Origin: an uncultured Christensenella sp.
Lineage (GTDB): Bacteria; Bacillota; Clostridia; Christensenellales; Pumilibacteraceae
Direction of reading: 5' to 3'
Assembly (NCBI GenBank): GCA_949948895.1
Contig: CATLHE010000002.1
Coordinates: 1-64,000 of the forward strand
DNA length: 64,000 nt
Shown here: piece by piece, positions 37,752-52,340 of the stretch
Numbering within the stretch: position 1 is the first letter of the stretch
How the letters are laid out: each line of letters begins with the position of its first letter
Position numbers and translations under genes: made by a program
Notes under the pieces: model-generated
What the model was told of the DNA's origin: nothing
Seen by the model: the letters and a program-made list of their open reading frames with translations, nothing else
Database searches by the model: none

Positions 37752-39626
37752 ATGGCAACACTTTACAGGAAATACCGCAGCAGAACGTTCGACGAGGTCA
37801 TAGGTCAAGCCCCCATCGTAACGACGCTCAAGAACCAGATCAAACTCGGCCGCATAGGTCACGCGTACCTTTTTGCGGGCAGTCGCGGCGTAGGCAAAAC
37901 CTCGTGCGCGCGCATATTCGCCCGCGCGGTCAACTGCCTGCACCCCGTAGACGGCAGTCCGTGCGGCGAGTGCGAGGTCTGCAAAAAACTCGATTCGCCC
38001 GACAACGTGGATATTATCGAAATGGACGCCGCGTCCAATAACGGCGTGGACGACGCGCGCGACATCCGCGAAAAAGTCAAGTACGCGCCCGCTGTGGGCA
38101 AGTACAAAGTATACATCATAGACGAAGTCCACATGCTCACGGGCGGCGCGTTCAACGCGCTTTTAAAAACCATAGAAGAACCGCCCGAGCATGTGATATT
38201 CATACTCGCGACAACCGAACCGCAAAAGCTCCCGCAGACCATTTTGTCGCGGTGCATACGTTTCGACTTCAAACTGGTCTCTACGGACGAGCTCGCCAAG
38301 CACATCGCCGCGGTGTACGACCGCGAAGGCATAAGCTACACCAAGGAAGCGACGGAAGAGATCGCAAGGCAGGGCGAGGGCAGCGTCAGAGACGCGCTCT
38401 CCATAGCCGACATGCTCGGCTCGGCGGCGGAAAAAATAACGCCCGAAGTCGTACTGTCGCTCACCGGCGCGGGCGACTCGTCGCGCATAGCCGAACTGTT
38501 CGACTGCGCCGCCGCGCGCGACGTGGCGGGCTGTCTCGCCGCTATCGACGCGCTTGCCAAGAGCGGCAAATCGATGAGCGCGGTGTGCCGTCAGCTCAAT
38601 ATCTACGCAAGAAACGCGCTCGTCCTGAAAGCGGTCGGCAAAGACCGCGCGTTGTCGGACGGGCTGATCAACGCCGACCGCGCGGCTTTCGACAGCCTGT
38701 GCGTCTCGGCGGATAAATGCGCGCTCGGTGATATAGCGCGCTTGCTCGACAGGTTCGGCGCGGCGGAGAGCGGACTCAAGTACTCGGTCAGTCCGAGACT
38801 GTACTTGGAGACCTCGATCGTCGGTATCGTCTGCGGCGCGGACGAGGACGACGACCTGCGCAAGCGCGTGTCTGCACTTGAAAGAAAACTCGGCTCCGTA
38901 GCGCCCGCTCCGGAGCAAAAAAAAAATAACCCGATAACTCCGTCGGCGCCCGTAACGGAACAGCCGAAACAACCGCAACCGCAGGTCAATGCGCCCGCGG
39001 CGAGCGCAACGCCGCCCGAAAAACCGTCGGCGCAGCCGATAACGCCGCCCGCCGCGCGGGTAACGCCGCAAGCGCCTGCCGCGTACGACTACGACGTTCC
39101 GCCCCCGCCCCCGCCCGAATACTACGGCGCCGCCGACGGCATAGCACCGCGTGCGCGCGAAGTAAGCGCGAACGCTATGGCTAAGCCCGCTCAGATTCGA
39201 ACGGATAAACAACGGGAAGCGAGCACGGCAAAATTACCCGAGTACGTATCCGCCGACGAGGGCGAGTTTATGCACCGCCGCGGCATAGCGGTAACGGGGC
39301 TTGAGCTCCTCGGCAAGGTCGCGACATACCTGCGCAAGAAGAACGATATGAGCTCGGCAAGGGTAAGAGACCTTTTGTCGCGCGGAGTCAAGGTAAAAGA
39401 GCGCGAGGACGCAATAGCGTTTGTAGTGCCCGACGCGTGCTTTTTGCAAATGAGCGAAGCCGCCACGCTGGACGTATTGAACGCCGCGCTCGATCATATC
39501 GGTCAAAAAAAGCGCGCGCGCGTGGAAAAGTCGGAGGACGATCTTTACGCTGACGATCTGGAGCTTGCGCGCGAACTGTTCGGGCGGGATCACGTAAAGC
39601 CCAAGGGAGTAGGGAATCATGTTTGA
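37752..39626 (+). CDS. dnaX: DNA polymerase III subunit gamma/tau
   Basis: 624 residues. Clamp-loader ATPase: LYRKYRSRTFDEVIGQ at the N-terminus, Walker A GSRGVGKTS, a zinc module with CGECEVC, Walker B in VYIIDEVHML, sensor 1 in ILATTEPQKLP, and the lid and collar domains to about 360. A Pro/Ala-rich linker (about 390-500) and a small C-terminal domain (about 510-600) follow. Expressed from a leaderless promoter. The usual downstream partners ybaB and recR are absent; nadE overlaps its end by 8 nt instead. Confidence 0.95.
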   Translation: MATLYRKYRSRTFDEVIGQAPIVTTLKNQIKLGRIGHAYLFAGSRGVGKTSCARIFARAVNCLHPVDGSPCGECEVCKKLDSPDNVDIIEMDAASNNGVDDARDIREKVKYAPAVGKYKVYIIDEVHMLTGGAFNALLKTIEEPPEHVIFILATTEPQKLPQTILSRCIRFDFKLVSTDELAKHIAAVYDREGISYTKEATEEIARQGEGSVRDALSIADMLGSAAEKITPEVVLSLTGAGDSSRIAELFDCAAARDVAGCLAAIDALAKSGKSMSAVCRQLNIYARNALVLKAVGKDRALSDGLINADRAAFDSLCVSADKCALGDIARLLDRFGAAESGLKYSVSPRLYLETSIVGIVCGADEDDDLRKRVSALERKLGSVAPAPEQKKNNPITPSAPVTEQPKQPQPQVNAPAASATPPEKPSAQPITPPAARVTPQAPAAYDYDVPPPPPPEYYGAADGIAPRAREVSANAMAKPAQIRTDKQREASTAKLPEYVSADEGEFMHRRGIAVTGLELLGKVATYLRKKNDMSSARVRDLLSRGVKVKEREDAIAFVVPDACFLQMSEAATLDVLNAALDHIGQKKRARVEKSEDDLYADDLELARELFGRDHVKPKGVGNHV

Positions 39627-40374
39627 CGCCGCAAAAGTAAAATGCGAATGCGTGGAATGGATACGCGAGTTCTTTGAGAAAAACGGCAAAGGCTGTAACG
39701 CAGTTGTCGGAATTTCGGGCGGTAAGGACAGCTCGGTCGTCGCCGCGCTGTGCGCGGAAGCGCTCGGCAAAGATCGCGTCGTCGGCGTGCTTATGCCGTG
39801 CGGCGTTCAGCACGATATAGACTGCGCGTACAAGCTGGTAAACTTTCTCGGTATAAAGCATTACGAGGTAAATATCAAAGCCGCCGTCGACGGAGTGGTC
39901 GGCGCGATCCCTTCCGAACTGAAGCTTACGGAACAGACCCGCAACAATCTTCCGCCGAGAATACGCATGGCGACGCTGTACGCCGTGTCGCAAAGCTGTA
40001 ACGGCAGAGTGGCAAATACCTGCAATCTTTCGGAGGACTACGTCGGGTATTCCACGCGCTACGGCGATTCCGTAGGCGATTTCAGTCCGCTGTCAAAACT
40101 GACGGTGACCGAAGTAAAGCAGATCGGCTACACGCTCGGCTTGCCGAAAGAACTTGTGGACAAAACGCCCATCGACGGGCTTTGCGGCAAGACCGACGAG
40201 GAAAACCTCGGTTTTACTTACGCCGAGCTCGACGCGTATATACGCACGGGAGTTATGAACGACGCAGACAAGAAAGCGCTCATCGACCGCAAGCACGAAC
40301 AGAACAAATTCAAACTCGAACTCATGCCTATGTTCGAGCCCGAGTTGTTGAGCGACGGGACGGCGGGAATATAA
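39619..40374 (+). CDS. nadE: NAD synthetase (ammonia- or glutamine-dependent NadE core)
   Basis: 251 residues, the size of the stand-alone synthetase domain without a glutaminase. The ATP-pyrophosphatase P-loop is VGISGGKDSSVVAALCAEAL; other motifs are VAVLMPCG-like VGVLMPCGVQHD, NTCNLSEDYVGYSTRYGDSVGDFSPLS and GLPKELVDKTPIDGLCG. It converts deamido-NAD to NAD in the cytosol. The ATG lies 8 nt inside dnaX, so the two are translationally coupled. It lies 120 nt before the TIR-domain gene, which may be functionally relevant (inference). Confidence 0.93.
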   Translation: MFDAAKVKCECVEWIREFFEKNGKGCNAVVGISGGKDSSVVAALCAEALGKDRVVGVLMPCGVQHDIDCAYKLVNFLGIKHYEVNIKAAVDGVVGAIPSELKLTEQTRNNLPPRIRMATLYAVSQSCNGRVANTCNLSEDYVGYSTRYGDSVGDFSPLSKLTVTEVKQIGYTLGLPKELVDKTPIDGLCGKTDEENLGFTYAELDAYIRTGVMNDADKKALIDRKHEQNKFKLELMPMFEPELLSDGTAGI

Positions 40375-40494: not shown

Positions 40495-42924
40495 ATGAAA
40501 CAAGTCAGATGCACAAACTGCGGCTCTGCCGCCATAGTCCCCGACGAGACGGGCGCGTTCGTCAAGTGCGAAGCGTGCGGGAGCACGTTTAACGTACCCA
40601 AAGCAACGGCGTTTTCCAAGGTGGAACTCGACCATACGCAGGACATCCGCGCGTGGCGCGAGTATTTGGGCAAGCAGTTGAGACTGCAACAGGACAGCAG
40701 TAAAGCGCGCGACTACGGCGGCGTAAAATTGTTTGCGCAAAAAATACTCTCGGTTCTTCCCGACGACTTTTGCGCTACGTACTATGTGGCGCTCGCAGAG
40801 CGTTACGACGACAACGACGTAGCGTTTATCGACTTTTTGTATAACGCTAAATTGGACGCGGCGACGCCCGAAGAACTTAAAGAGATAGTCGATTCGGTCG
40901 TGGCTTCCGCAGAGCCTAAATATGCGGACGACGTCAAAGCGTTTGTAAAGCGCGCGTACCCGAGCGGTTATGCCGCATACGAACCGCTCATCGACCGCAA
41001 TATAAAGACTTATATCCAAAAACTCAAAATGACACGTACCGCCGAACGCGACGTGTTTATATGCCATCGCACCGCCGCGCCCGATCAGGACGTTGCGGAC
41101 GCTATATGCTCGAGACTCGAGGCGCGCGGGCTCAGGTGCTGGATCGCGCCGAGAAACATACTCGCGGGCTCGCAGAACTACGAGCGCGACATATTAAAAG
41201 GCGTAGAAAACTGCAAGATATTTCTCGTAGTGTCGAGCTTTAAGTCCATATATTCTGAGGATTGCGAGATGGAGCTGAAAGCCGCCGTGCTTGCGGGCAA
41301 GGCGCTTTACAGCTACCGCATTGACGATACGGAATACGACGGCGCGTTTTTGCGCGCGCTCTCGAGCGTTCAGTGGCTGGACGCGACGGACGATCCGTAT
41401 GCGCATCTCGAACAGCTCGTTATAGACATAAAGGGCATGCTCGCTGAGGATGCGCGCGAAAAAGCCGAGCTCGAAGAAAAGCGGCTCGCGGCGCGCGAAA
41501 AAGAAAGGCAGCTTTTGGAAGAACAGCGCGCGCGCGAAAAAGAGCGCATCGAGCGCTTGGAAAAATTGGTGTCGGGCGATATCGCGGCGACCGCCGCGCC
41601 GTCGTATAACTATAAATCAAGGCTCAAACGCGCCGAGATAGAGATAGGCTCGGGCAACTTCGACCGCGCCGAAAGCATAATAGACGACGTGCTCGACGTC
41701 GCGCCCGAAGACCCGCTCGCCTGGTGGCTGTTGCTCCTTTGCTCTTTCCGCGTGAGATCGGACGACGAACTCATGGCGCTGGACAGAGATTTCACCGCGC
41801 ACTCGTCGTTTATCAATGCGGAAAGGTTTGCCGACGCCGCCGTGCAAAAACGCGTGGATAAAGCCGTGTCGGCGTATCGCGTGAAAGCGGTAAAGACGGT
41901 AAACGACATACTGTCGAGAGCGGAGCGCGACTATGCGCGCGAGGATTTCAATGCTTTAGGCAAGACTCTCGACGAATGCGCGAACGCGTTCAAAAACGAG
42001 GACGGACTTATATACAGGAAATTCCCCGATATCGCAAGCAGATATTATTGGCTTAGACTGTGGGCAAAGTACGGACAGACCCCGCTCGTGTGCGTAGAGG
42101 ACATAACGCGCGAGACCGAGTACAAAACGGCAATGCGGTACGCGTCGCCCGCGCAAGCGGCGGAGTACGAAAAGGCAAGGGAAACCGTTTCCAAGAATGC
42201 GGCGCTGTTTCTTCGCGAACGTTCCAAGAACAAAGCTAACGACGGCAAGCTCGTCGACTACTTGGTCGACAATAAGAACATACTCCCCGTTGATACATAC
42301 AATTATTATTCGTCTTTGCTGTACTTTCGCAAAATGCTGTCGGAGCTCAATATGACGGAGGCTCAGCTCCGCCGTTCGACTGCGGATATATCGACAAACG
42401 AGTATTTCATGCTGGCGCAGTCGATAGCCACGGACGCTCAAAACGTAGAGTACGACGCGCTTCTCGCGACGCTCGATAAAAACCGCGCGGATAAAGCAAG
42501 GAGCGAGAAACAAGCCCGCGAACTGAAAGAAGCGGAAGAGCGCCGCAAGAAAGCCGCGGGCAAGGTCAAGACCGCATTTATAATCGCGACGGCGGTAATA
42601 TCGTACGTCTTGTTCTTTGCGGGAATACTGACGCTTGACGGCAACGACGGCGGGCTCGCGGCATGCATGGTCATATCCTCGGTGTTCAGAGTGATAAACA
42701 ACGCTATCATGCTCATGACGCCGGATAGCAAAAAGAGCATAGCTTTTACGGTCGTAAACATTGTGCTGGACGCCATTACGATAACGATATCGCCGCTCGC
42801 GCACATAGTTCATATTAGAGGTTTATCGGGACTTGCGTGGCTGCTCTCTTCATACGGCGTCATAATATGTTCGTTTGTTTTGGAAGCGCTCATATTTTCC
42901 AAACGCAAACGCAAAAACAAATAA
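40495..42924 (+). CDS. Zinc-ribbon/TIR/helical-repeat/four-TM protein
   Basis: 809 residues. Domains in order: a zinc ribbon (CTNCGSAAIVP...CEACGS, 6-29); a helical linker; a TIR domain (about 184-310) beginning RDVFICHRTA and containing RCWIAPRNILAG and the EDCEMEL segment, where Glu260 (C257-x2-E) matches the catalytic Glu of NAD-cleaving TIR domains; a charged coiled coil (about 318-365); a long helical-repeat region (about 375-680); and four membrane spans (about 693-800) ending KRKRKNK. The N-terminal zinc ribbon and C-terminal spans resemble YdjG-type proteins. Probably a membrane-anchored sensor or effector, first gene of a five-gene island. NADase activity is inferred from one residue pattern. 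Confidence 0.88.
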   Translation: MKQVRCTNCGSAAIVPDETGAFVKCEACGSTFNVPKATAFSKVELDHTQDIRAWREYLGKQLRLQQDSSKARDYGGVKLFAQKILSVLPDDFCATYYVALAERYDDNDVAFIDFLYNAKLDAATPEELKEIVDSVVASAEPKYADDVKAFVKRAYPSGYAAYEPLIDRNIKTYIQKLKMTRTAERDVFICHRTAAPDQDVADAICSRLEARGLRCWIAPRNILAGSQNYERDILKGVENCKIFLVVSSFKSIYSEDCEMELKAAVLAGKALYSYRIDDTEYDGAFLRALSSVQWLDATDDPYAHLEQLVIDIKGMLAEDAREKAELEEKRLAAREKERQLLEEQRAREKERIERLEKLVSGDIAATAAPSYNYKSRLKRAEIEIGSGNFDRAESIIDDVLDVAPEDPLAWWLLLLCSFRVRSDDELMALDRDFTAHSSFINAERFADAAVQKRVDKAVSAYRVKAVKTVNDILSRAERDYAREDFNALGKTLDECANAFKNEDGLIYRKFPDIASRYYWLRLWAKYGQTPLVCVEDITRETEYKTAMRYASPAQAAEYEKARETVSKNAALFLRERSKNKANDGKLVDYLVDNKNILPVDTYNYYSSLLYFRKMLSELNMTEAQLRRSTADISTNEYFMLAQSIATDAQNVEYDALLATLDKNRADKARSEKQARELKEAEERRKKAAGKVKTAFIIATAVISYVLFFAGILTLDGNDGGLAACMVISSVFRVINNAIMLMTPDSKKSIAFTVVNIVLDAITITISPLAHIVHIRGLSGLAWLLSSYGVIICSFVLEALIFSKRKRKNK

Positions 42925-42975
42925 AACAAACGGAAAAAACGCGAAAGCGTGATCGCATATAACGGAGGTACGATC

Positions 42976-43812
42976 ATGACGGAAATAGTCAAATTCACGG
43001 GCAACAATGCGGAACTGTTCTGCCGCGAGAGCGCGGACGAACTGCATGCGAAAGCGCAGGTGATAGTTCCCGAAACGCATACGGTATTGCTCATTAAAGA
43101 CGGCGTGGTGTCGGAAGCTTTACAGCCCGGTCGCCATGATATATTCGATACCGAGAACGGGCTGTTCAGACTGAAAAAAGACAGCGACGTGGCTTCGGTT
43201 GATTTCGTGTTCGTGTCGAAAACGGCAAAGCTCCAAATGCTGTGGGGTACGAGTTCGCCCATAAAAACGCGCGACCCCGAAACGGGCGTTCTCGTATCGC
43301 TCGGTGCGAACGGCGAGCTCGAATTAAGGGTAAAAACGCCCAAACAGTTCTATTTGGAACTTGTCGGCGCGGACACCGAGTACTCTGTCGATAAACTCAA
43401 ACGCCGCATACAAAACAGGCTCATGAGCGTTATCGAGCCCGCGCTTGCAAAATGCATGCGCGAGAAAAAGATCAGCTATACCGAGTTTTCCGAGCACAAA
43501 GCGGCTATATCGTCGGAGCTCAAAAAGAGCCTTGCGGAACTTCTGGCTGCCGAGTACGGCTTGGAACTTTGCTCTTTCTCGATAAACGGTGCTATCATAT
43601 CCGACGCGGACATAATAGCCATAGAGCGCAAGCGTGACGAGCTCGGACGGTCGGGTAAGGTGTGCGGCGTGTGCGGCAACGCATGCGGCGAGAACGATAA
43701 ATTCTGCCCCGAGTGCGGCAGTTCGCTCGCGGAATCGTATTGCTCGCATTGCGGGCACAAGCTCGACGCGTCGGCAAAGTTCTGCCCCGAGTGCGGCAAA
43801 AAAGTCAAATAA
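42976..43812 (+). CDS. SPFH/Band-7 protein with two C-terminal zinc ribbons (YdjI-like)
   Basis: 278 residues from the ATG at 42976, preceded by GGAGGT. The SPFH part (about 1-215) shows VIVPETHTVLLIKDGVVSEALQPGRHDIF, WGTSSPIKTRDPETGV and an amphipathic helical segment, as in YdjI of Bacillus subtilis. Two zinc ribbons follow: CGVCGNACGENDKFCPECG and CSHCGHKLDASAKFCPECG. SPFH proteins form membrane-associated scaffolds. In B. subtilis ydjI is in an operon with pspA. Here it lies next to Snf7-like and Vps4-like genes, which supports a role in membrane maintenance. Confidence 0.9.
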   Translation: MTEIVKFTGNNAELFCRESADELHAKAQVIVPETHTVLLIKDGVVSEALQPGRHDIFDTENGLFRLKKDSDVASVDFVFVSKTAKLQMLWGTSSPIKTRDPETGVLVSLGANGELELRVKTPKQFYLELVGADTEYSVDKLKRRIQNRLMSVIEPALAKCMREKKISYTEFSEHKAAISSELKKSLAELLAAEYGLELCSFSINGAIISDADIIAIERKRDELGRSGKVCGVCGNACGENDKFCPECGSSLAESYCSHCGHKLDASAKFCPECGKKVK

Positions 43813-43880: not shown

Positions 43881-44210
43881 ATGGGATTTTGTTTTTCTTC
43901 GCCCGATAAAAAAGAACTGCTCGCGGACAGCCGCGAAATGGTGGAAAGCAACGCGCGCGTGCTTTCGGTGTGCGTAGAGCTTGCCGAGGGCGACTTGCAA
44001 AACGCCGTAGCCAAAGTATACGACGCGGTGAGATACATGGTGCCGAGCGCGTCGGCGGGCGCAATGCAAGCCGATAAAAAATTGGGCGCGCTTGCGGGCG
44101 ATCTCAAGATCGCGCTGAGTAAAGGCAAGGAGCGCGGACTGCTCCAAGCCGAAGATATTTTAAAGGATATGAACACCGCCATCGCGGAGCGCAATTCGTA
44201 CACGAACTGA
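43881..44210 (+). CDS. Small helical protein of unknown function
   Basis: 109 residues, almost entirely helical by sequence, starting MGFCFSSPDKKELLADSREM. No family recognised. It has three cysteines and no membrane span. AGGAG lies upstream of the ATG. It follows the SPFH gene by 68 nt and precedes the Snf7-like gene, from which it is separated by a 306-nt repeat-containing gap. By position it could be an adaptor between the SPFH scaffold and the remodelling pair, which is inference only. Confidence 0.75.
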   Translation: MGFCFSSPDKKELLADSREMVESNARVLSVCVELAEGDLQNAVAKVYDAVRYMVPSASAGAMQADKKLGALAGDLKIALSKGKERGLLQAEDILKDMNTAIAERNSYTN

Positions 44211-44241
44211 GCCGCGGAGATAGCGCACTCAACCGCATATA

Positions 44242-44513
44242 ATAGTCGCCATGGTTAGAACGACGTAAACATCACTCACAATGCTAATAGCGGTGGCGCG
44301 CATAAACAAATAGACCAAGACTGATAGGTCTTAAAAATAGCGGCGGCGCAATTGCAATGGGTTCTATGGTAATAGCCGCGTCAATATCAATCGTAACTAT
44401 AATAGCGGTGACACATTTACAATAGCTGCCATGGCAAGAACGGCGCAAATATCACCAGTAACTATAATAGCGGTGGCGCACACAAACAAATAAACCAAGA
44501 CGGATAGGTCATA
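44242..44513 (+). repeat. Imperfect direct repeats inside the island
   Basis: A ~93-bp block AATAGTCGCCATGG...GATAGGTCTTA (44242-44334) recurs at 44421-44513 as AATAGCTGCCATGG...GATAGGTCATA. The core (T)AATAGCGG(T/C)G(G/A)C(G/A)CA appears several more times between them. The last copy runs up to the start codon of the Snf7-like gene. No ORF is supported. Confidence 0.85.
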
Positions 44514-44516
44514 AAT

Positions 44517-45119
44517 ATGTTTGGAAGGAATAAGTTTAAAAAACTGAAACGCGAAGACGTAGTCGATGCGATAATACAGCTCGGCAAACAGCAGGACGAC
44601 TTAGAGAACGGCATAATGCAAAAGTCCGAAGAAGTCGAGAAACTGATGGAGCGCGGCCGCAAGGAAAAGAACCGCGACATAAAACTGCTGTGCGCCAAAA
44701 AAGTGAGCAGTCTTCAAGACGAGATAAAACGCGACACCAAGCGCGCCGCGTTTTTGCTGTACAACGTAAAACTCCTCGAAAAACTGAAAGCGGCGATAGA
44801 CGACAATCAGTTCGTAGAGAACACGTCAAAGCTCTCGCTCAACAAACTGTTAAGCGACCAGAAAGCGCTGGCGCAGTTCCTCGAAAGCGCGATAGCGACG
44901 CGCACCGCCGCGGAAGACTCGCTCGTGGAAGCGGACAGACTGTTCGAGTCGTATGAGCAAGCCGCGCAGTCTGAGGACGGTCCCATATACTCTGCGAGCA
45001 AGTCCGACGACGAGCTTCTCGCCATGTTCGAAATGCAGGACCAGCTCGATTCCGAAGCGGAGTTCGATTCCGATTTTGCCAAAGACTCGGCAAGGCAAGC
45101 GAGCCTCGAGGAAGAATAA
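44517..45119 (+). CDS. Snf7-like (ESCRT-III-type) coiled-coil protein
   Basis: 200 residues. A basic start (MFGRNKFKKLKRED) is followed by a long helical hairpin: VVDAIIQLGKQQDDLENGI (about 15-33), a stretch resembling the Snf7 turn region (MERGRKEKNRDIKLLCAKKV, 45-63) and further helices to about 148. It ends in an acidic, partly disordered tail with a short amphipathic segment (DDELLAMFEMQDQL, 164-177) in the position of an MIT-interacting motif. Basic membrane-binding core plus acidic autoinhibitory/MIM tail is the ESCRT-III layout. The Vps4-like gene begins directly after the stop. Could instead be a diverged PspA relative; the same superfamily either way. Confidence 0.75.
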   Translation: MFGRNKFKKLKREDVVDAIIQLGKQQDDLENGIMQKSEEVEKLMERGRKEKNRDIKLLCAKKVSSLQDEIKRDTKRAAFLLYNVKLLEKLKAAIDDNQFVENTSKLSLNKLLSDQKALAQFLESAIATRTAAEDSLVEADRLFESYEQAAQSEDGPIYSASKSDDELLAMFEMQDQLDSEAEFDSDFAKDSARQASLEEE

Positions 45120-46226
45120 ATGACCGAAGACAATCTCATACGCACATTCGATACGTATTTTAATAGCGCAAAAAACGCTCAGAACGCAGGCGCGTACAAC
45201 AAGGCGAAGCGCGACTATTACAGAGCGGCGGAGATCATGACCGAGCTCGCCAAAATGTCGGGCGAAAAACTCAAAGCCGCGCGCGTCGAGCGCGCCAAGC
45301 GCATAATATCGATCGCCGATTCTCTGCCCGAGTCCGAACCGATAAAGCCCGTAGCGAGAAAGACAGCGGCGCGAGGAAAGACGGATATCGCCGCGGACGA
45401 CGGCGAACCGATCAAAGCCGCCGAGATCCCCGACGTGTCGTTTGACGACGTAAAAGGTTTGGAACGCGCCAAGGAAGCGATACGCATAAAAATGATATAC
45501 CCCATGTCGCACGGCGACGTGTACGCCGCGCTCGGCAAAAAATCGGGCGGCGGCGTGCTGTTGTACGGTCCGCCGGGCACCGGTAAAACGATGATCGCAA
45601 AAGCGGCGGCGCATGAAGCTGGCGCGGTATTCTACGCCGTCAAGTGCTCTGACATCGTGAGCAAATGGGTAGGCGAGTCCGAAAAAAACATCGCCGCGCT
45701 GTTCGATACGGCAAGAAAACACGACCGCGCCATAATATTCTTCGACGAGCTCGACTCGCTGTTTTTCAAGCGCGGCAAGGACGTGCACAACGACAGACGC
45801 GTAAACGAGCTCCTGCAACAGATAGACGGGTTTTCGAGCAAGAGCTCGGGGCTCATGGTGCTGGGCGCTACCAATAACCCGTGGGCGGTAGACGACGCGG
45901 CAATGCGCCCCGGCAGGTTCAGTCAAAAAATATATATCCCGCTCCCCGACAGCGAAGCACGGGAAGCAATGATAAGAGCAAAACTCAAAAATACCAAAAC
46001 GGACGGAGCGATCGACGTAGCTAAAATAACCGCCGCGACGGACGGATTTTCGGGCGCGGACATAACCGAGCTCATTGACCGCGCAACGGACGCGCCGCTC
46101 CGCCGCTCGCTGAAAAGCGGCACGGTATGCGGGCTGACCGCCGAGGATATCGACGAAGCGCTGGACAGCGTCAAGCCGTCGGTGGACGAAGCGACGGTGG
46201 CGAGATTCGAACAGTACGACGACTAA
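45120..46226 (+). CDS. Vps4-like AAA ATPase with MIT-like N-terminal domain
   Basis: 368 residues. Residues about 5-68 form a three-helix MIT-like domain (YFNSAKNAQNAGAYNKAKRD, then YYRAAEIMTELAKMS). After a linker comes a meiotic-clade AAA core: FDDVKGLERAKEAI, Walker A GPPGTGKT (150-157), pore loop SKWVGES (181-187, with Trp183), Walker B IIFFDELDSL, arginine-finger pair R226/R227, sensor TNN (251-253), FSGADI and the C-terminal helix VKPSVDEATVARFEQY typical of Vps4/katanin. The Vps4 beta-domain insertion appears absent. ATG abuts the stop of the Snf7-like gene with no spacing. Likely disassembles that protein's polymers. Confidence 0.88.
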   Translation: MTEDNLIRTFDTYFNSAKNAQNAGAYNKAKRDYYRAAEIMTELAKMSGEKLKAARVERAKRIISIADSLPESEPIKPVARKTAARGKTDIAADDGEPIKAAEIPDVSFDDVKGLERAKEAIRIKMIYPMSHGDVYAALGKKSGGGVLLYGPPGTGKTMIAKAAAHEAGAVFYAVKCSDIVSKWVGESEKNIAALFDTARKHDRAIIFFDELDSLFFKRGKDVHNDRRVNELLQQIDGFSSKSSGLMVLGATNNPWAVDDAAMRPGRFSQKIYIPLPDSEAREAMIRAKLKNTKTDGAIDVAKITAATDGFSGADITELIDRATDAPLRRSLKSGTVCGLTAEDIDEALDSVKPSVDEATVARFEQYDD

Positions 46227-46313: not shown

Positions 46314-46339
46314 AAAACTTCCTCGAAAGGGAAGTTTTT
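46314..46339 (+). terminator. Terminator of the TIR/ESCRT-like island
   Basis: AAAACTTCC (46314-46322) pairs with GGAAGTTTT (46330-46338), loop TCGAAAG, followed by T-rich sequence. It closes the island 88 nt after the AAA ATPase stop. Confidence 0.9.
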
Positions 46340-51547: not shown

Positions 51548-51692
51548 CTGTGTGGTTCGTGTCCATAAAGTCTATGCATGCGGCGCGGTTAAAAAACTAA
51601 TCGTATTTTAATGTGGATTAAAGCTTTTATTAATCTGTATATGCGTATAATATAATCGTACAAACTTGCACACGGCAAGGAAAGGAGAACAC

Positions 51693-52340
51693 ATGAAAGA
51701 TCCGTATGCGGTACTCGGATTACCGAGAGATACCGACAAAGACCTTCTCAAAGCCAAATATGACGAGCTTCACGAGCTTTACGGCGAACAGCGCTTTAAA
51801 GCGGGCGAAGCGGGTAACGAGGGCGCGCGCAAGCTTCAGGAATTGGAAGAGGCGTGGGTTCTTATTTCTTCGGACATGGACAGAACGGACAAGACCGAGG
51901 CGTTCGGCAACGATTACGGGCGTATCGACATGCTTATCCGCGACGGCAAGTATAACGAAGCGCAGGATATCCTCGATTCCATAACCGAGCGTAAAGGCGA
52001 GTGGCACTATATGCAAGCAATAGTGTTTTATAAACGCGAATGGCTGACCGAAGCCAAGACTCAGCTCGAAATGGCTATACAGGACGATCCGTCAAACGAA
52101 AAATACCGCAGTTCGCTCGACAAGCTTAAGCTTACCATGAGCGGCGGCGCGTCTTATAACGGCGCGAACGCGGGCAACAATCAGACCCCGCCGCAGAACG
52201 CGCAGTACAATAACAATCCTTACAATGGCGGTTACGAACAGCCGCCTCAGCAAGCCGACAATATGTCAAACTGCCTGAGCTCTTGCTGCTGCGCGTACTG
52301 TCTTACCGACTGCCTTTGCTCGACTTTGCGCTGCTGCTGA
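51693..52340 (+). CDS. J-domain-like protein with Cys-rich C-terminus
   Basis: 215 residues from the ATG at 51693, preceded by AAAGGAGA. The N-terminal ~65 residues begin like a J domain (KDPYAVLGLPRDTDKDLLKA) but the loop between helices II and III reads ELYGEQRF with no HPD tripeptide, so DnaK stimulation is doubtful. A TPR-like helical pair (about 75-140) follows, then an Asn/Pro/Gln-rich linker and a Cys-rich end (CLSSCCCAYCLTDCLCSTLRCC). Paired with DUF5685 upstream and coupled to the membrane protein downstream. Confidence 0.85.
   Translation: MKDPYAVLGLPRDTDKDLLKAKYDELHELYGEQRFKAGEAGNEGARKLQELEEAWVLISSDMDRTDKTEAFGNDYGRIDMLIRDGKYNEAQDILDSITERKGEWHYMQAIVFYKREWLTEAKTQLEMAIQDDPSNEKYRSSLDKLKLTMSGGASYNGANAGNNQTPPQNAQYNNNPYNGGYEQPPQQADNMSNCLSSCCCAYCLTDCLCSTLRCC

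Follow-up and report, generated by a model that had tools for sequence, protein, structure and literature searches.

The gene pair and its operon

A 64,000-nucleotide stretch of an uncultured Christensenella sp. genome (assembly GCA_949948895.1, contig CATLHE010000002.1, positions 1 to 64,000; hereafter the window, part of a 1.86-Mb genome in 24 contigs) carries two adjoining genes that probably encode the polymer and the motor of a bacterial system of the endosomal sorting complex required for transport (ESCRT)-III/Vps4 type. An earlier note, made from the sequence alone, had described the pair as a Snf7-like coiled-coil protein followed with zero spacing by an MIT-AAA ATPase. Both open reading frames are in place on the forward strand: E3, the putative ESCRT-III-like protein of 200 amino acids (44517–45119, +), and the Vps4-like MIT-AAA ATPase of 368 amino acids (45120–46226, +), whose ATG directly follows the E3 stop codon. 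E3 has the basic start (MFGRNKFKKLKR) and acidic tail ascribed to it, while the ATPase bears the Walker A motif GPPGTGKT, the pore loop SKWVGES, the RPGR arginines and the C-terminus KPSVDEATVARFEQYDD, all in conserved columns.

The pair is real but is not the whole unit, as it seems to form the 3′ end of a longer operon that starts near 40495 or 42949. The operon appears to end at a terminator-like stem-loop 3′ of the ATPase gene (46314–46338, +), a consensus match from a pattern scan with 10 pairs followed by a T-rich tail, downstream of which lies a gene judged by eye to be aminotransferase-like. Three upstream genes share the strand of the pair. The first encodes a TIR protein of 809 amino acids (40495–42924, +; Pfam TIR_2, 5e-17) with an N-terminal zinc ribbon, a TPR-like middle and a hydrophobic C-terminus; its Pfam TPR and zinc-ribbon matches are sub-threshold and its C-terminal membrane helices were judged by eye. 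It is followed by an SPFH/Band 7 protein with a C-terminal double zinc ribbon (42949–43812, +; Pfam Band_7_1, 9.9e-21, and zinc-ribbon matches), which starts at either GTG 42949 or ATG 42976, and by CC109, a small helical protein of 109 amino acids (43881–44210, +) that matches no Pfam family at E ≤ 1 and is kept near E3 in 32 of 35 E3 loci.

Some further features surround these genes. An NAD synthase gene (39619–40374; Pfam 3.3e-50) lies directly upstream of the TIR gene; since just partial matches of 29–32% occur upstream in two related loci (L050 and L052), it is apparently no conserved partner. The gap 5′ of E3 (44238–44518) holds two 101-nucleotide copies of a repeat, 180 nucleotides apart and 79% identical, the second of which extends to the E3 start codon, as well as two 65-nucleotide copies of another (72%). 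Further downstream, a DnaJ-like/TPR protein (51666–52340; weak matches) ends in a cysteine-rich tail (CLSSCCCAYCLTDCLCSTLRCC), and its gene is retained in L049, L051 and L052.

A predicted MIT domain on a Vps4-like AAA core

The earlier note had proposed that the first 70 residues of the ATPase fold as an MIT domain, and this prediction stands. The AlphaFold2 model of the N-terminus is a three-helix bundle with a predicted local distance difference test (pLDDT) score of about 97 over residues 11–70, and the domain covers residues 1–75 (45120–45344, +). The top-ranked Foldseek match is 2w2u, an archaeal Vps4 MIT structure, and MIT domains fill 14 of the first 20 rows. By profile comparison, the domain matches the N-termini of Vps4-type ATPases over 80 columns (P 9.6e-9). 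Among the Pfam matches listed for the window ATPase and its relatives, the MIT family does not appear. Searched by sequence against the PDB, the MIT-family profile finds first the non-MIT protein 2jpu, then a designed protein and TPR designs. Another of its PDB matches, 2mpk, is an MIT-like domain.

The remainder of the ATPase is a single classical AAA core (Pfam AAA, 3.2e-41; AAA_lid_3, 1.7e-8), with Walker A and B motifs, pore loop and arginine fingers in conserved columns. The two best NCBIfam models are matched by all 26 ATPase family members scanned, both far below their cut-offs in the window protein: CDC48, at 220.3 bits, aligns to residues 101–366 only, while CdvC (NF041006), at 212.9 of 650 bits, aligns residues 12–366 to model positions 13–364 and thus runs through the MIT region. 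The Vps4_C family scores 15.6 bits in the window ATPase (cut-off 21.3) and is found at E ≤ 0.1 in 22 of the 26 members, at best with 1.7e-5.

In a tree rooted on FtsH, Cdc48 splits first and the remainder forms one group (98/90), which divides in two. One side (90/72) unites the archaeal and Chlorohelix Vps4-type ATPases with human and yeast Vps4, katanin and spastin; the other (97/96) unites the bacterial MIT-AAA family with actinobacterial AAA proteins. This first tree omits five of the 26 single MIT-AAA rows, six of the 12 rows with a double AAA and the Nonomuraea protein. In a second tree, drawn without the long-branched L067 (contig 10 of the window's genome), the bacterial family forms a single branch (99/96). 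Approximately unbiased (AU) tests, with groups chosen after the first tree had been viewed, reject placing the family with FtsH (p 0.009) or Cdc48 (p 0.025), and likewise reject a single clade of the family and archaeal Vps4 that excludes the others (p 0.02). An FtsH-like or Cdc48-like ATPase is thereby rejected, in a tree from which ClpX is absent; a grouping with FtsH would have contradicted the earlier note. A Vps4-type ATPase is borne out insofar as the enzyme groups beside Vps4 and katanin, but it belongs to a sister lineage and is not nested within Vps4. Because CdvC, PAN, ClpX and Asgard Vps4 are absent, the tree says just "next to Vps4"; the name Vps4-like, rather than Vps4, reflects the position of the protein outside the archaeal and eukaryotic clade. 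A recent transfer of an archaeal gene into the genus is unsupported in this same tree, where the family is a separate branch. Together, there is good support for regarding both the MIT and the AAA parts of the ATPase as Vps4-like.

E3, a predicted ESCRT-III-like protein

Structure prediction gives E3 (44517–45119) helices at residues 12–49, 53–103, 108–113, 115–151 and 160–198, in agreement with the hairpin anticipated by the earlier note: a long hairpin comes first and shorter helices follow, arranged as in ESCRT-III proteins (pLDDT 76.7; predicted template-modelling score 0.56). At this moderate confidence, the predicted helices follow the defining arrangement of an α1–α2 hairpin and then α3 to α5. 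The model superposes on the hairpins of CHMP4B and CHMP1B with a root-mean-square deviation of about 1, and 22 of its 50 best Foldseek rows belong to the ESCRT-III/PspA/Vipp1 superfamily, none of them significant; helical hairpins such as this match widely. The C-terminal helix is conserved around DD.LLAMFE, a candidate MIT-interacting motif.

Sequence comparison brings weaker signals. Against a 201-amino-acid Thermococcus protein, E3 reaches E 0.0039 with a profile and P 2e-4 in a single-sequence profile comparison, and against a 210-amino-acid Chlorohelix protein P 7e-4 in the latter, the best reversed control of the set being 0.019. Haloarchaeal ESCRT-locus proteins match E3 weakly at best (P 0.02), and comparison with the profile of E2p, described below, gives only P 0.0046. 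A search with the Snf7 family reached none of 41 relatives. The Pfam scan of E3 relatives returned scattered unrelated families, and Snf7 is absent from the 25 listed of 59 families that match 34 E3 members. PspA identity is likewise unsupported: Pfam PspA_IM30 has no match to E3 at E ≤ 1, and the corresponding profile comparison gives P 0.015 over residues 2–45 only. The Snf7-like reading of E3 thus has the predicted structure, faint sequence similarities and the gene neighbourhood behind it, but no Snf7 profile match. With moderate confidence, these three lines suggest that E3 is ESCRT-III-like, its ESCRT-III fold being supported, if not proven.

Conservation of the cassette

E3 and the ATPase are part of a more extensive cassette, which often has the TIR gene, then the SPFH-zinc-ribbon gene, CC109 and E3, usually E2p, and then the ATPase gene. 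E3 occurs in 12 of 61 genomes in a search of relatives (the window's own counted) and in 27 of 396 genomes across the order, representing 14 of 142 genera. Thirty-five E3 loci were fetched, 12 from the former search and 23 more from the latter; one of them (in genome G302) is split across two contigs, and script counts refer to 36 stretches. (The A3 alignment omits the half genes found in L127 and L128.) The MIT-AAA gene lies within the fetched stretch at 32 of the 35 loci, so its linkage to E3 is not due to chance. The SPFH gene is equally frequent (32/35), being absent from L054 and, near contig ends, from L055 and L116, whereas E2p is found at 26 and a trypsin-like gene at seven. Five further genomes of the window's genus (L048–L052) share the order SPFH–CC109–E3–MIT-AAA, and in four of them (L048, L049, L050 and L052) a TIR gene lies upstream within the stretch.

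Across the loci, the TIR-gene query matches 24 of 36 stretches, though not all of these matches are TIR proteins. A Pfam scan of six such neighbours found TIR_2 over cut-off in three (L056, L057 and L105), one match below cut-off in L123, and no TIR match in L114 or L117. Twelve relatives have a double-AAA form of the ATPase, with an extra AAA domain, by eye CbxX/SpoVK-like, between the MIT domain and the Vps4-like AAA (L054–L057, L061, L105–L109, L111 and L112). A related cassette in L062, L064 and L065 comprises a helix-turn-helix protein (by eye), an SPFH protein, a coiled coil of about 335 amino acids, a divergent E2p, an MIT-AAA protein and a trypsin-like protease, and each of the three also has a protein that matches the TIR/TPR query. 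A phage origin is unsupported: a scan of viral contigs with short peptide patterns, which reaches close relatives only, found no E3 relative. The corresponding scan of genome contigs yielded just five close relatives.

E2p, a second ESCRT-III-type protein

E2p, a protein of about 190 amino acids, is encoded next to E3 in most relatives. Of the 26 loci that have it, 25 place its gene between those of E3 and the ATPase, L124 being the one that differs. Across the order, E2p is present in 26 of 27 genomes with E3 as opposed to 17 of 369 without it, and in an even sample of the phylum searched with the early A2 model, it was found in one of 398 genomes, the window's own.

Computed comparisons show a relationship of E2p to Snf7 at the level of sequence. 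The L123 protein matches Pfam Snf7 (PF03357) at 34.0 bits (cut-off 27.3; E 2.8e-8), the only E2p over cut-off among the 15 members shown singly, and 21 of 30 members match at E ≤ 10. The E2p profile also matches a 188-amino-acid Thermococcus protein over its whole length (E 8.1e-16; hhalign P 6.4e-12, reversed 0.17), which in turn matches Snf7 below threshold (E 4e-4) and whose gene adjoins that of a Vps4-type ATPase. The set searched comprised 957 open reading frames (L129 and L144–L155), among which ESCRT-locus proteins are over-represented because the loci were partly chosen for Vps4-type ATPases. Haloarchaeal ESCRT-locus proteins match E2p weakly at best (P 0.002), and the L123 protein has no ESCRT-III match in the PDB. 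The A5 profile, from whose alignment three divergent rows (L062, L064 and L065) were left out, finds two PDB matches at E ≤ 10, S100-A5 and CHMP2A (the latter colinear, at E 0.6), too weak on their own; against a three-sequence CHMP profile it reaches P 0.0011 (reversed, 0.083). The C-terminal helix of E2p appears to be charged, with a loose pattern in 30 of 33 sequences.

Contig 10 of the window's genome carries two E2p genes directly before a second, divergent MIT-AAA gene. On that contig, an E2p domain is fused to an FtsK/SpoIIIE-like domain (L067:5719–7251; Pfam 2e-28) in a gene that directly precedes the second E2p gene and the divergent MIT-AAA gene. E2p matches also occur inside open frames of 556–967 amino acids in G020, G031, G235, G267, G374 and G383.

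A proposed polymer, motor and platform

Together, these observations show a real, conserved bacterial module that most likely acts like ESCRT-III/Vps4. We assign a probability of roughly 0.78 to the reading that its two genes supply the polymer and the motor of such a system, with an SPFH platform protein encoded alongside. E3, joined by E2p in most relatives, would form polymers on the cytoplasmic membrane, where the SPFH protein probably marks the sites; the MIT domain would bind the conserved C-terminal helices of E3 and E2p; and the hexameric AAA motor would thread subunits out, such that the filament is remodelled and recycled. In the window's genome, E3 stands alone in its operon, with the two E2p genes and the second MIT-AAA on another contig. 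Four observations weigh against this reading. E2p, which matches Snf7 and is present at most E3 loci, is missing from the window operon; Pfam Snf7 (PF03357) has no match to the window E3, which is not filed there; none of the 50 best Foldseek rows of E3 reaches E ≤ 0.001 and a bMERB domain ranks first; and the ATPase falls outside the archaeal and eukaryotic Vps4 clade, in a sister lineage with actinobacterial AAA proteins. For an operon without E2p, the complete machine envisaged by the earlier note is too strong a term.

The same observations could be read in other ways. Conceivably, E3 acts as a generic adaptor of the helical-hairpin type, delivering substrates to an unfoldase, and the MIT-AAA protein serves protein quality control or complex disassembly with no membrane remodelling. 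The missing Snf7 match, the promiscuity of helical hairpins, the trypsin-like genes and a nearest tree outgroup of actinobacterial AAA proteins, one encoded beside a TPR gene, would all suit such an adaptor; E2p, which reaches Snf7 in one species and matches the Thermococcus protein whole-length, the Vps4 MIT domains that head the structural matches and the prevalent SPFH gene all speak against it, and we regard the adaptor as unlikely. Still less credible is a short TPR-like bundle in place of the MIT domain, which would make the ATPase an ordinary AAA protein with a TPR-like adaptor domain. This proposal draws on 2jpu and the designed proteins found in the PDB and on the unlisted Pfam MIT family, and is countered by the predominance of MIT domains among structure matches and by the 80-column profile match.

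A third alternative is compatible with the polymer-and-motor reading rather than exclusive of it, namely that the cassette is mainly anti-phage: its ESCRT-like parts would sense envelope damage and release or activate a TIR NADase or a protease, killing the infected cell. The TIR_2 domains of the window and of three of six scanned neighbours, the trypsin-like genes, the patchy spread and the PADLOC similarities (ThsB, 4e-6, for TIR; IetA, 7.7e-38, for AAA) point this way, but the curated IteA score is not reached (118.2 of 510 bits), and three of the neighbours found by the TIR query have no TIR match or one below cut-off. As the principal function, we consider defence possible but doubtful.

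Under the polymer-and-motor reading, the system may serve to repair or survey the cell envelope, given that some of the cassettes also encode TIR and trypsin-like proteins; such neighbours hint at a role in defence or controlled death. PspA_IM30 exceeds its cut-off in none of the 61 genomes sampled from the order (two have matches below it), while the same search finds PspA in nine of 14 control genomes. Where present, the cassette could therefore fill a role like that of PspA, yet most genomes of the order lack E3. A bolder and distinctly tentative proposal is that bacteria own a two-component ESCRT-III/Vps4 machine, an old sister lineage rather than a recent archaeal loan, that is SPFH-based and connected with TIR NADases and trypsin-like proteases for innate immunity or envelope surveillance, triggering cell suicide. 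If so, failure or triggering of membrane repair would set off suicide, and functional TIR and protease neighbours would link the two processes in bacteria. The cassette also bears on the age of the polymer-plus-motor pair and offers a small system for testing it.

Comparison with known systems

As a PADLOC defence system, the cassette was set aside, the matches being just AAA, TIR and protease similarity; the likeness to IetA, the ATPase of the anti-phage IetAS system, lies in the AAA domain and falls short of the curated model. In the literature, passages of one paper hold that a clear Vps4 homologue is missing from bacteria (PMC7615534). A link between ESCRT-III and an ATPase in bacteria is nevertheless not unheard of, as portions of Ravi et al. 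(2024; PMC11237479) already note bacterial Vps4-like AAA proteins without snf7, PspA with double-AAA proteins, and Snf7 homologues with AAA in longer operons. In the cases described there, a TPR-6TM gene has taken the place of snf7 or snf7 accompanies transporter genes, and those portions contain no description of a cassette of MIT-AAA, ESCRT-III, SPFH and TIR; none was found in the open-licence literature for MIT-AAA, E3, SPFH and TIR together.

PspA/Vipp1 systems, among them PspA loci that contain the SPFH protein YdjI, likewise link an ESCRT-III superfamily protein to SPFH, but the window E3 lacks their family match. Zinc-ribbon SPFH proteins occur in some archaeal ESCRT loci and YdjI in some PspA loci, according to parts of another paper (PMC10936438). 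In the Cdv system of TACK archaea (CdvB/CdvC), too, an ESCRT-III-type gene lies beside an MIT-AAA gene, and the CdvC model aligns along the whole window ATPase, yet its equivalog score is not reached. A Chloroflexota plasmid, of Ca. Chlorohelix allophototropha (L153:1–2455), encodes two proteins of about 200 amino acids, a Ser/Thr kinase and an AAA protein. By eye, this AAA protein begins with an MIT-like region, and its long branch clusters with archaeal Vps4; the plasmid genes are perhaps a second, archaeal-type bacterial ESCRT locus.

The euryarchaeal ESCRT locus on a Thermococcus peptonophilus plasmid (L152) offers a further counterpart. It combines a Vps4-type ATPase (Vps4_C 35.8 bits, over cut-off) with a Snf7-like protein homologous to E2p and a 201-amino-acid protein weakly like E3, and loci of this type resemble the "Main" clade of Makarova et al. 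(2024), an assignment made in this analysis. The bacterial cassette has SPFH, CC109 and often TIR instead of the kinase and PP2C phosphatase encoded at the archaeal locus, and its MIT-AAA protein stands in a lineage sister to that of the archaeal ATPase.
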